The position numbers and the translations under genes were made by a program. A DNA stretch of 64,000 bases from assembly GCF_000430995.1 (NCBI RefSeq), contig NZ_HF952018.1:1368449-1432448 (forward strand), read 5' to 3'. This document shows positions 19,163-61,520 of this stretch, in pieces. Under the pieces are notes generated by a model. The model was given only the letters and a program-made list of their open reading frames with translations, made no database searches and was not told where the DNA came from. The stretch is from Thermobrachium celere DSM 8682 (lineage in GTDB: Bacteria; Bacillota; Clostridia; Clostridiales; Caloramatoraceae). Numbering within the stretch: position 1 is the stretch's first letter; every line of letters starts with the position of its first letter.

Positions 19163-19462
19163 ATGAAATTTAATATAAACCAAAGGGCTTTAGATTATAT
19201 TATCTCAAAGGGTGGCAACTTAATAATAACTGTTGTAAAATCCTCCTGCGGATGAGCAGGTAGTGTAAAAAGTCTCTGGATAGAGGCTGTAAAATATGTA
19301 GATAATATTGAAAACTACTATTATTATGAGCAGGATAAAATAAAAATATATATCCATAAAAGTCTTTTACTTGATAATGAGATAACTATTGAACTAAAAG
19401 CAAAAATCCCCCTAATTGGACCTATCTTTAATGTTAAAGGTGTAAAAATAAATTCCATATAG
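19163..19462 (+). CDS. CC/Se-motif selenoprotein (in-frame UGA = selenocysteine)
   Basis: 99 aa if the TGA at 19253-19255 (codon 31) is selenocysteine; the frame stays open before and after it to the TAG at 19460. The site reads SSCGUAG, the hallmark of the small CC/Se-motif (HesB-like) family, whose other members carry Cys there. GGAGG lies 7 nt before the ATG. A 7-bp stem with loop GGAU starts 15 nt after the UGA, matching bacterial SECIS geometry. Function is unknown; a redox or metal-binding role fits the C-x-U pair. Confidence 0.88.
19253..19288 (+). promoter_or_regulatory. Bacterial SECIS element of the CC/Se selenoprotein
   Basis: UGA at 19253-19255; stem AGUCUCU/AGAGGCU (19271-19277 and 19282-19288, one G-U pair) with loop GGAU (19278-19281). 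The loop GG is about 23 nt after the UGA, in the usual window for SelB recognition. Confidence 0.75.
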
Positions 19463-56957: not shown

Positions 56958-57920
56958 ATGAAGGAAATAGTTATCACAAAAAATGAAGCTGGCCAAAGAC
57001 TTGATAAATTTTTACGAAAATATTTAAAGGAAATGTCACTAGGTGCTATATATAAATCCATTAGAAAAGGTGAAGTTAAAGTTAATAATCAAAAAAGAAA
57101 TGAAAAGTACATACTTAATGAAGGAGATATTTTAAATCTTGATATCGAAGTAGAAAGTACAAAAAACAAAGAAACTAAAAAATTTTTAGAGATTGATTAT
57201 GATTTAAAAGTGGCTTATGAAGATGAAAATATATTAGTTGTTGAAAAAAGACCAGATTTGCTTGTTCATCCAGATGAGGGAAAGGAAATAACCTTAACAG
57301 ATGAAGTATGGGCATACCTATTTGATAAGGGAGAATATAATCCTGAAAACGAAAAAACATTTGCCCCTTCTCCTTGTAATAGATTAGATAGGAATACAGA
57401 AGGTCTAGTTATATTTGCTAAAAACTATGAAGCATTAAGACAAATAAATGAAGCTATAAGACTTGGAGGTATACAGAAAATTTACACAGCACTAGTTAAG
57501 GGAAAAATAAAAGAAGGGGAATATAAGGGGTACATAGTTAAAAACGAAAGAAACAATAAAGTAACTATAACAGATAAAAAGATTAAAAATGCAAAAGAAA
57601 TAATTACAAAGGTTTTAAATGTTGAATCAGTCGGTATTGCATCAGTTATTGAAATAGACCTAGTAACCGGGAGAAGCCATCAAATCAGAGCCCATCTATT
57701 ACACTTGGGAAATCCTATTGTTGGAGATCCAAAATACGGTAATAGAAAATTCAATAGTTTCTTCTTTAATAAATTTGGTTTAAAGCACCAACTTCTTGTT
57801 GCTAATAAAATCATATTTAAAAATGTTGGCGGCAATCTAAAATATCTTGAAGGAAAAGTTATAACAATGAATTTACCTCCAATATTTAAAAAAGTAAAAA
57901 ACGATCTATTTAAATTTTAA
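56958..57920 (+). CDS. RluA/RluC-family pseudouridine synthase
   Basis: 320 aa. S4 RNA-binding domain at the start (GQRLDKFLRKYLKEM), catalytic CNRLDRNTEGLVIFAK (Asp near 140), GRSHQIRAHLLHLGNPIVGD. RBS GAGGTGATGTT. It points away from the other RluA gene, sharing a divergent promoter region. Its terminator follows the stop codon. Confidence 0.93.
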   Translation: MKEIVITKNEAGQRLDKFLRKYLKEMSLGAIYKSIRKGEVKVNNQKRNEKYILNEGDILNLDIEVESTKNKETKKFLEIDYDLKVAYEDENILVVEKRPDLLVHPDEGKEITLTDEVWAYLFDKGEYNPENEKTFAPSPCNRLDRNTEGLVIFAKNYEALRQINEAIRLGGIQKIYTALVKGKIKEGEYKGYIVKNERNNKVTITDKKIKNAKEIITKVLNVESVGIASVIEIDLVTGRSHQIRAHLLHLGNPIVGDPKYGNRKFNSFFFNKFGLKHQLLVANKIIFKNVGGNLKYLEGKVITMNLPPIFKKVKNDLFKF

Positions 57921-57962
57921 AGGTCTTGGCTTAAGGATTCTTACCTTAAGCCAAGACCTTTT
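57919..57962 (+). terminator. Terminator after the RluC-like gene
   Basis: 18-bp stem (57919-57936 and 57944-57961), 7-nt loop, TTTTA tail. Confidence 0.85.
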
Positions 57963-57965
57963 ATA

Positions 57966-58268
57966 TCAGCATGAACATCCACTTCTACCATATAGTTGCT
58001 CTACTACAAATCTCTTTCCAAAGAAAGAATTTCTGTAATCAATTACAAATCCCTTTGAATATCTTGATAGTTCCTTATCAAACAATACCTTAATTCCCTC
58101 AACCTCATAAACATTGTCTGTTTTCTTCTGCTCATCCAGAGCAAGACCATAGCTTGGGCCACCTCATCCAATGCCAGCTATAAATATTCTTACTCCTAAT
58201 GTTTGATCTTTTCCTTCTAACTTTTTCTTCAACTCTTCAGCAGCTGACTGAGTAATCTTTATTTCCAT
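57966..58268 (-). CDS. HesB/IscA-like selenoprotein (in-frame UGA = selenocysteine)
   Basis: 100 aa if the UGA at 58164-58166 (codon 35, context GIGUGG) is selenocysteine; the frame is open on both sides to a C-terminal CSC. HesB/IscA fold (ITQSAAEELKKKLEG; FIAGIG; GPSYGLALDE; IDYR), with the Sec at a conserved Cys position. The RBS GGAGGTG precedes the ATG. Its SECIS-like stem-loop sits 19 nt after the UGA. Cys homologues bind Fe-S or act in Fe-S delivery; the Sec version is probably redox active. Confidence 0.9.
58128..58166 (-). promoter_or_regulatory. Bacterial SECIS element of the HesB-like selenoprotein
   Basis: UGA at 58164-58166; stem UUGCUC/GAGCAG (58139-58144 and 58128-58133) with loop UGGAU, the GG about 27 nt after the UGA. 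The loop resembles that of the other selenoprotein gene in this window. Confidence 0.75.
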
Positions 58269-58312: not shown

Positions 58313-58341
58313 ATTATATTATCTTTATATTACATTGTAAA
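58313..58341 (-). promoter_or_regulatory. Promoter of the HesB-like selenoprotein gene
   Basis: On the minus strand TTTACA (58336-58341), 17-bp spacer and TATAAT (58313-58318). Downstream a small inverted repeat ATACC/GGTAT lies before the RBS; it has a weak resemblance to an IscR site, but I do not claim one. Confidence 0.7.
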
Positions 58342-58385
58342 CATTTTTCTTATATTTTTTAATAATTATTTAAGTTTATAAAAAT

Positions 58386-58440
58386 AATCACCATGAATAG
58401 CCTCTAATTATTATTTTTATGAAAGCTATTCATGGTGATA
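58386..58440 (-). terminator. Terminator after the nitroreductase gene
   Basis: About 15-bp stem (58386-58401 and 58425-58439), 23-nt loop, AT-rich tail. Confidence 0.7.
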
Positions 58441-58954: not shown

Positions 58955-59074
58955 AGTATCACTCCTTCCTATAATTTATTTTTTCTCACAAGATTTTTAC
59001 TATTCGTCGAATACATAAAGTATATACTTCATAAAATCTATTATGTATTAGAAATTATTAGAAGGAGAAGGTAT

Positions 59075-59845
59075 ATGGAACTCATTTGGCTTGAAGCAAA
59101 TGGTTGTTCAGGAAATATCATATCTTTTTTAAACAGTCAAAACCCTTCATTTGGATTTTTAAAACAAAAAATAAATATAACCTTTAGTAATAGCGATATG
59201 TACCCATATGGGGAAGCAGCAATGGAAGATTTTTTTAAAACTGTTGAAAATGGAAATTATATTCTTGTTGTTGAAGGTGCAATTGCAACAAGAGAAAATG
59301 GAAAATATAACATAATTGGATACTACAATAATCAATATGTTACTGCACTAGAAGCCGTAAAAATAGCATCAGAAAACGCCAAATATATAATATCTGCTGG
59401 AACTTGTTCATGTTTTGGAGGTATATCTGCATCAGATCCCAACATATCCGAATCTAAAGCATTAAGCGAAGTCATCCCAAATAAAATGATAATAAAAATG
59501 CCTGGATGTCCTGTATCTGGTAATTGGATGGCATCCCTTCTTTTAAGTCTTTTAGAAAATAAGGCTATTGAACTTGATCCACTTGGAAGGCCTATATATC
59601 TATATGGTAACACTGTGCATGACTTTTGCGAGAGAAGAACTTTCTTTGAAAGAAATATATTTGCAAAAAAAGTTGGAGATATAGGATGCTATTTAAAAAT
59701 AGGTTGTGTTGGCCCTTCTACTAAAGCCCCCTGCCCATATACAAAATGGAATGGATATATTAAGTGGCCTATTGGAGTAAATTCACAATGCATAGGCTGT
59801 ACATCTAAAGACTTTCCAAATTACACACTTTTTAAGGAGGAATGA
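59075..59845 (+). CDS. [NiFe]-hydrogenase small subunit (cytosolic)
   Basis: 256 aa from ATG 59075 (AGAAGGAGAAGG upstream); the longer ORF has an unlikely leader and no RBS. No Tat signal, so it is cytosolic. Fe-S sites: proximal C11 then SAGTCSCFGG, MPGCPVSG; medial and distal HDFCERR, CYLKIGCVGPSTKAPC, CIGCTSKD. The second proximal ligand, usually Cys in a C-x2-C pair, is Asn14 (CSGN). First gene of a three-gene unit. Confidence 0.92.
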   Translation: MELIWLEANGCSGNIISFLNSQNPSFGFLKQKINITFSNSDMYPYGEAAMEDFFKTVENGNYILVVEGAIATRENGKYNIIGYYNNQYVTALEAVKIASENAKYIISAGTCSCFGGISASDPNISESKALSEVIPNKMIIKMPGCPVSGNWMASLLLSLLENKAIELDPLGRPIYLYGNTVHDFCERRTFFERNIFAKKVGDIGCYLKIGCVGPSTKAPCPYTKWNGYIKWPIGVNSQCIGCTSKDFPNYTLFKEE

Positions 59846-59851
59846 AATAAT

Positions 59852-61150
59852 ATGGAGATAATTTTAAGCCCTATAACTAGAATAAGTGGTTTTTTAACAA
59901 TAGTACTTGAAATTGATAATAATGTTGTCATAGATGCAAAATGTAAAGGAACCATGTTTCGTGGATTTGAAAAACTTCTAATCAACAGACATCCGCTTGA
60001 TGCTATTTATTTAACCCAAAGAATATGTGGCATATGTTCCTCAGCTCATAGTATAGCATCAAGCCGTGCATTAGAAGATTGTTCAAAGATTGATATTAGC
60101 TTCAATTCTAAACTAGTTAGAAATATAATTCATGGTTTTGATATACTTCAAAATCATATAAGACATTTTTATCTTTTTTCAGTTCCAGACTTTATAAATG
60201 TAGAAGGTGAAAAAATAAATAGCAAAGTTCCAAAGGAGTTAGAAAATAAAATAAATGAAAACTATATAAAATCCCTATATTATTCAACACTTGCACATCA
60301 GGGTTTAAGTATTTTTGGTGGTAAAGCCCCCCACAACCATGGAATTGTATTTGGAGGTGTAACTTCTAAACTAAATCTTTATGAATTTTCAAAGGCAGTT
60401 GAAATTTCAAAGGAACTACTTGAATTTACTAATATTATGATTGATGATTACCAGATAATTGAAAAGTATTACGATGAATATAATAAGTTAGGAGATACAG
60501 GAGGAAATTATATAAGCTTTGGTCTATTTGAAGATACACCTGAATTTACTATTTGTAAAAGCGGTGCTTTAATTAATAAAGAACTTTGCAATTTAGATTT
60601 AAATAATTTAAAAGAATATGAAGTTCAGGATGACATATCTTTTATAAATGCACCAAGGTATATAGACCTTCCTGTTGAGGTTGGACCACTTGCAAGGCAA
60701 TCCATAAGAAGTGGGTGGATTAAAAGTTCTACATTAAACAGAATAAAAGCTAGAGTCTATGAAGCTAAACTGATTGCTGAAAGGTTAAATGAAATGCTTA
60801 ACTTAGTCACAATAAATCAAAATGAAACAAAAACAGATTTTATAGATGGAATTGGAGTAGGTATAACAGATACAATACGTGGAGCATTATATCATAATGT
60901 TGAAATAAAGGATAAGAAAATTTATAAATATAACATAATAACACCATCAGCATTTAATCTCTCGCCAACATATAATAATGTTAAGGGCCCATTAGAAAAA
61001 GCATTAATAGGAACTTATATAGAAGACATAAATAATCCTATTGAAATAATTAGAATAGTTCATTCCTTTGATCCATGTGTATCCTGTGCGACTCATTTAG
61101 TAAGTAAAAATGGGGAATTTTTAAATGAAAACTATTTTATGCATAGGTAA
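59852..61150 (+). CDS. [NiFe]-hydrogenase large subunit (catalytic)
   Basis: 432 aa. Metal ligands: L1 R-I-C-G-I-C-S-S-A-H near 58-67 and L2 D-P-C-V-S-C-A-T-H (Cys409, Cys412, His415). A 17-residue tail after His415 would be cut off by the protease encoded next. Short for the class and without a leader peptide, so it partners the cytosolic small subunit 6 nt upstream. It contains a 26-nt overlap with the protease gene. Confidence 0.94.
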   Translation: MEIILSPITRISGFLTIVLEIDNNVVIDAKCKGTMFRGFEKLLINRHPLDAIYLTQRICGICSSAHSIASSRALEDCSKIDISFNSKLVRNIIHGFDILQNHIRHFYLFSVPDFINVEGEKINSKVPKELENKINENYIKSLYYSTLAHQGLSIFGGKAPHNHGIVFGGVTSKLNLYEFSKAVEISKELLEFTNIMIDDYQIIEKYYDEYNKLGDTGGNYISFGLFEDTPEFTICKSGALINKELCNLDLNNLKEYEVQDDISFINAPRYIDLPVEVGPLARQSIRSGWIKSSTLNRIKARVYEAKLIAERLNEMLNLVTINQNETKTDFIDGIGVGITDTIRGALYHNVEIKDKKIYKYNIITPSAFNLSPTYNNVKGPLEKALIGTYIEDINNPIEIIRIVHSFDPCVSCATHLVSKNGEFLNENYFMHR

Positions 61151-61520
61151 TATATTAATGGGTGATGACGGAATAGGTATAATCCTTGGACATCTACTTA
61201 AGAAAAAAGGAATTAACTGCATAATTTGTGAAACAGATATATCTTTAATTAATGAAGTAATTAATAATTCTGAACAGCTAATAATTGTAGATGCAGTTAA
61301 TTTTGATCTAAATCCAGGAGATATTGTTATTTTTAATAATTTTGAATTTTATTCATCTCCAATACTTCAACACGACTTGGTATTCTATAAAAACAAAAAA
61401 ACAACATTGTTTGGAATACAAGTAAAGGATATTGATTATAGAATAGGTATCTCAAGTGAAATACTAAAAAATTTAAAAGTTTACTTGAACTACATTATAA
61501 AACTTTATAATTCAAATTAG
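61125..61520 (+). CDS. Hydrogenase maturation protease (HycI/HyaD family)
   Basis: 131 aa. The nickel-contact motif CIGNILMGDDGIG carries the Asp typical of the family, with IIVDAVNF near 51 and a His in LQHDL near 85. It cleaves the C-terminal tail of the large subunit after nickel insertion. No hypA-F genes lie in this window. Confidence 0.9.
   Translation: MKTILCIGNILMGDDGIGIILGHLLKKKGINCIICETDISLINEVINNSEQLIIVDAVNFDLNPGDIVIFNNFEFYSSPILQHDLVFYKNKKTTLFGIQVKDIDYRIGISSEILKNLKVYLNYIIKLYNSN

Follow-up and report, generated by a model that had tools for sequence, protein, structure and literature searches.

Comparative sequence evidence for a somewhat divergent HesB-like selenoprotein in Thermobrachium celere DSM 8682

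A short gene of Thermobrachium celere DSM 8682 almost certainly encodes a real selenoprotein of the HesB/IscA fold, judging by comparison with related sequences. It is located in a stretch of 64,000 nucleotides (the window; contig NZ_HF952018.1, positions 1,368,449 to 1,432,448), where it occupies positions 58268-57966 of the minus strand. Translation with the in-frame TGA of codon 35 (58164-58166) taken as selenocysteine (Sec, U) gives 100 amino acids followed by a TGA stop (57968-57966): MEIKITQSAAEELKKKLEGKDQTLGVRIFIAGIGUGGPSYGLALDEQKKTDNVYEVEGIKVLFDKELSRYSKGFVIDYRNSFFGKRFVVEQLYGRSGCSC. Ordinary translation ends at codon 35, and the gene is readable only through this UGA, within GIGUGG, exactly at the place and codon given in the original prediction, with the strand being minus. 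The whole explanation favoured here is a HesB/IscA-fold selenoprotein whose Sec35 is decoded via a downstream hairpin and which serves in Fe-S or metal handling or in redox control. Taken as a whole, it is considered probable.

The start codon is ATG, and the claimed ribosome-binding site ahead of it is read directly as GGAGGT at 58281-58276. The claimed promoter is present as a sigma-70-like TTTACA-17-TATAAT sequence found by motif scan (58313-58341, minus strand, 11/12 match), but the scan of the region returned six sites versus 3.7 expected in shuffles, which is not clearly above them, and the promoter is therefore weak evidence. Between the gene and a convergent rluA-family gene, a perfect 18-bp inverted repeat can be read directly (57919-57961, strand not specified). 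It is likely a terminator common to both genes, and was not flagged by a terminator scan of the region. No Rfam family was found at the gene at the gathering threshold. A separate strong hairpin at 58383-58440 (about 18 pairs, z -7.1) lies downstream of a nitroreductase-like gene and is probably its terminator.

Reading past the UGA is supported by the orthologues. The search set comprised 60 related genomes, T. celere included, of which 48 have some match to the HesB-like protein, and the same-family set comprised 17 genomes (G000-G016) of the genus Caloramator and its kin. An orthologue with a single in-frame TGA occurs in 15 of these 17, at 57-99% identity. The TGA occupies the identical codon in 15/15 and all of them keep Sec; of the other two family genomes, G006 has no match and G011 has distant matches only. 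Close relatives (L050-L053, three from Caloramator, among them L051 of C. proteoclasticus DSM 10124, and L052 from Clostridiales) are 82-87% identical. Among orthologue pairs with dS < 3 (87/105 after the UGA and 71/105 before it), the median dN/dS is 0.128 after the UGA versus 0.197 before it, and purifying selection on the protein evidently goes on past this codon. An alternative would be that the UGA is a plain stop ending a 34-residue peptide, with the remainder being a pseudogene or the product of a sequencing error. Although ordinary reading does halt at codon 35, this alternative is ruled out by the TGA shared among 15 genomes, the constraint beyond it, a covarying hairpin and the Sec machinery of the genome, and its probability is put next to nil.

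The hairpin lies shortly downstream of the UGA (58128-58144, minus strand), with a 6-bp stem (58144-58139 / 58133-58128) and a G-containing apical loop, UGGAU (58138-58134); the usual distance from UGA to SECIS is about 16-37 nt. In 30 non-redundant Sec genes the UGA is followed by a 6-bp stem enclosing a UGGAU loop, with 92.8% of stem cells paired versus 78.2% in shuffles and changes on both sides in five of the six pairs. Covariation scores 0.420, compared with 0.173 in shuffles, and none of the 500 shuffles scores as high. Moreover, pairing drops to 30-58% in slid versions of the stem, and RNAalifold predicts the same six pairs unprompted. The SECIS-like element of the original prediction is thus upheld as a covarying stem with its loop, but in energy alone the window sequence is ordinary, being not stronger than shuffles (z -0.23 and -0.02), and as that energy comparison gave the SECIS no support, comparative covariation was used instead. 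Additionally, the loop overlaps a Leu codon, which is CTG in 34/35 Sec loci (29/30 distinct) and in 0/6 Cys homologues; in an overlapping wider set it is CTG in 30/33 Sec rows and 0/11 Cys rows. In the window, CTG accounts for 19 of 1146 Leu codons (1.7%; 27 ORFs). This pattern of codon use in the aligned genes indicates selection for the loop in Sec loci. The exception is the Sec copy of L044, with TTA at this codon and a poor hairpin. L044 belongs to one of the tandem arrangements in which Sec and Cys HesB copies stand side by side (L044/L119 in G035, L040 in G043 and L041 in G025). The G035 Sec copy keeps the TGA with the UGGAU loop and CTG codon absent, and is perhaps a Sec gene in decay.

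The genome possesses the machinery for Sec insertion. It contains a tRNA-Sec (71.4 bits, over the cut-off), SelB (385.4 bits), SelD (381.6 bits, itself carrying an in-frame TGA) and SelA, the last being an ORF adjoining selB in L009 that was recognised by reading the sequence. These four genes form one cluster on the same contig, about 0.46 Mb from the HesB-like gene. Among the 60 genomes, SelB exceeds the cut-off in 25/27 with a TGA-containing HesB versus 9/33 others (Fisher p 2.5e-7, uncorrected for ancestry). In G004 and G008, the two where it does not, SelB is represented by broken or contig-edge pieces only. Neither of the objections named beforehand applies: with selA, selB, selD and tRNA-Sec in the genome the Sec machinery is not absent, and with the same TGA in 15 genomes a sequencing error hiding a Cys codon at 58164-58166 does not account for it. 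SelB and tRNA-Sec would decode the UGA of codon 35 as Sec, aided by the hairpin just downstream.

By sequence and predicted fold, the protein is of the IscA/HesB type. It passes the cut-offs of TIGR00049 (63.1 bits, cut-off 58.8) and PF01521 (41.4 bits, cut-off 26.3, the terminal stop being counted as an additional residue), and a profile of 37 relatives matches the PDB entries IscA, SufA, HI1723 and AQ_1857. The predicted structure has a pLDDT of 81.3, with residues 97-100 below 50, and a Foldseek search with it gave ten matches at E <= 0.001, of which eight are IscA/SufA/HI1723/AQ_1857 chains, one is DsrR and one a 9a4q chain. The HesB/IscA-type fold claimed earlier is supported by the profile cut-offs and by the likeness of the predicted fold to IscA and SufA. 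The scores are below the cut-offs of the selenoprotein models NF038090 (IscA_HesB_Se; 70.4, cut-off 85) and TIGR01911 (HesB_rel_seleno; 54.0, cut-off 66.35), and far below those of the IscA, SufA and ErpA equivalogs (43.0, 41.2 and 62.1 versus 150.6, 136.2 and 117). The HesB-like selenoproteins of these two families share with the protein the HesB fold, Sec at a conserved Cys and the motif UxGP (here UGGP), whereas the sub-cut-off scores and the CSC tail kept in this genus set it apart. Its likeness to the carriers IscA, SufA and ErpA extends to the fold and a full-length alignment in which U35, C98 and C100 fall on the carriers' three Cys positions, which we take to be the cluster ligands; unlike the carriers, it has Sec in place of the first Cys, and the second tail Cys is not conserved among its orthologues. 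Two proposed checks were carried out: the IscA/HesB alignment maps Sec35 onto the first cluster Cys, and the search for Cys homologues found 12, which have Cys at this position, as do the IscA-type PDB entries.

The window holds another Sec gene at 19163-19462 (plus strand, U at 19253), belonging to NF041239 (CC/Se motif; 45 bits, cut-off 40), and its UGA is followed by a hairpin with a UGGAU loop. It resembles the HesB-like gene in size, in the place of Sec and in this hairpin, but is of another family with the motif SCGU. One of the 37 members of the alignment of HesB relatives (A1) matches the NF041239 profile (E 4e-4), and the NF041239 family may share ancestry with HesB.

The C-terminal tail is more variable than was first supposed. 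The original prediction placed Sec for Cys near an Fe-S or metal site in a conserved fold ending in CSC; the first cluster-Cys position stands and the window protein does end in CSC, but this ending is not conserved, occurring in just 6/15 orthologues (the window, L021-L024 and L027). The three conserved Cys of a canonical A-type protein are not found, since the first is Sec and CSC is limited to those six, and thus the canonical three-thiol site does not extend across the whole clade. All 37 aligned rows (37/37) have Sec or Cys at the first position and one C-terminal Cys, and the second tail Cys varies; because only Sec35 and this single Cys are always kept, it is not certain that the protein is a three-ligand Fe-S carrier. 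The tree puts a divergent pair from G011 inside the window's orthologues, and a test holding these orthologues together as a clade neither showed nor rejected it (AU p 0.144).

A two-residue Se/S site competes seriously with the three-ligand Fe-S carrier as an explanation. In this redox alternative, the HesB fold would be retained and the three-ligand cluster site lost, while Sec35 and the single C-terminal Cys would be joined as a selenenyl-sulfide and the protein would have glutaredoxin-like partners. The invariance of one C-terminal Cys, but not of the second, agrees with it, as does the finding among 61 non-redundant proteins of a single tail Cys in 30/49 Sec forms versus 0/12 Cys forms (Fisher p 1.3e-4). 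However, the same association has a p of 0.5 when counted by ancestry (seven independent pairs, about two informative), and the tail itself is not confidently modelled at residues 97-100. YruB/glutaredoxin-like genes adjoin the Sec gene in L111, L112 and L116, and lie farther off in L109 and L114 (about 1.1 kb) and also in L055, but the tested ones reach just 78-87 bits (TIGR02196 cut-off 88.55), and no such gene was observed next to the window gene. The redox alternative is a tentative possibility. As a claim in its own right, a link between Sec and the loss of the second tail Cys was discarded, having failed the count by ancestry. Near the Sec-HesB gene, L109, L114 and L115 also have a TIGR03980 gene (hybrid-cluster-protein-associated redox disulfide domain), scored in L109 only (102 bits).

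The genomic setting bears on the Fe-S or metal reading. No protein of the genome other than the HesB-like selenoprotein exceeds the Pfam cut-off for PF01521, and the genome has one NifU_N protein (IscU); beside IscU stand cysteine-desulfurase-like (IscS-like) and MnmA-like ORFs, labelled from sequence reading, and no A-type carrier (iscA) among the ORFs read around it. SufBD has no match in the genome, the same search being positive in 14/14 control genomes. As the only PF01521 protein above the cut-off in an ISC-type setting (IscU, no SufBD found), the selenoprotein is the strongest contender for the role of A-type carrier. Searching with the protein sequence turned up other HesB-type genes in the same genome. 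A second one with Sec (L018, G000:C32:1635112-1635372, minus strand) is 44% identical over residues 1-86, with a UAGP motif and an RSSC end, and comes closer to the TIGR01911 type (54.8 bits, cut-off 66.35). The assembly has two copies of a Cys-type gene (L019/L020), one on a short contig (G000:C6:9080-9382) and the other on the main contig (G000:C32:1603119-1603421), and assembly redundancy is a possible explanation.

The conserved neighbours in the window's clade do not point to Fe-S work. Gene order with the rluA-family gene and an unnamed 345-residue protein, for which no NCBIfam match was found, is kept in 15/15 loci. A functional link to rluA was set aside, since in most Caloramator loci, including the window, rluA faces the opposite way, and for want of any suggested mechanism. 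Elsewhere, Mrp/ApbC-type genes occur near the Sec gene in five loci of two lineages (L062, L063, L066, L054 and L055), and selA-selB stands directly upstream of it in L092 (G023) and L108 (G113). As one neighbour survey, which covered 44 loci, was made without a matched control, the Mrp, glutaredoxin and selAB links are leads. The selA-selB placement would suit a role in selenium delivery or storage in place of Fe-S work, but it is confined to two loci and the sel cluster of T. celere is far from the window gene, which makes such a role improbable. Also in the window, small and large hydrogenase subunit genes (58970-61150, plus strand) are closest to NiFeSe hydrogenase models; Cys is read in their DPCVSC motif, at the position where NiFeSe enzymes may have Sec. 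A maturation protease follows at 61125-61520.

Sec35 stands at the first cluster-ligand Cys position of A-type Fe-S carriers, and in the favoured explanation the protein would act in Fe-S or metal handling or its redox control. Sec35 would partner the always-kept C-terminal Cys (C98), C100 being a further thiol in this genus, and the Sec35/Cys pair may be either a selenolate/thiolate ligand set or a selenenyl-sulfide pair. A carrier of Fe-S or metal, as against a purely redox protein, is given somewhat less than even confidence.

HesB-like selenoproteins are an already known kind, present in listings since at least 2006. They are among the 25 selenoprotein families of one table, with 11 members at that time (PMC1794560), are entered with TIGR01911 and the motif UxGP in Table 1 of another source (PMC13188914), and are listed as a selenoprotein family in a third (PMC9312934). 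The HesB-like selenoprotein of Methanococcus maripaludis, found by mutagenesis and 75Se labelling, is described as having no clear function; its disruption left nitrogen fixation normal, according to an unpublished observation cited there (PMC11097638), which speaks against the favoured explanation. A literature search combining Caloramator and selenoprotein found no paper, and searches on HesB selenoproteins brought up mainly reviews and surveys. The window gene is a new, somewhat divergent HesB-like selenoprotein of a kind already described.

For annotation, the finding matters because ordinary ORF calling splits the gene and the cut-offs of both seleno-HesB models miss it. More broadly, although the HesB-like selenoprotein family was recognised some twenty years ago, it still has no assigned function. 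Since the sole A-type-carrier-like protein over the Pfam cut-off is a selenoprotein, alongside an ISC-type scaffold and no SufBD, it is conceivable, though unlikely, that Fe-S or metal hand-over in the anaerobes of Caloramator runs through a selenolate site, and that the clade-wide Sec plus one Cys constitutes a novel type of Se/S site built on the IscA fold. With Sec in 15/15 members and a variable tail, the clade offers a clean system for asking why selenium is preferred on this fold.
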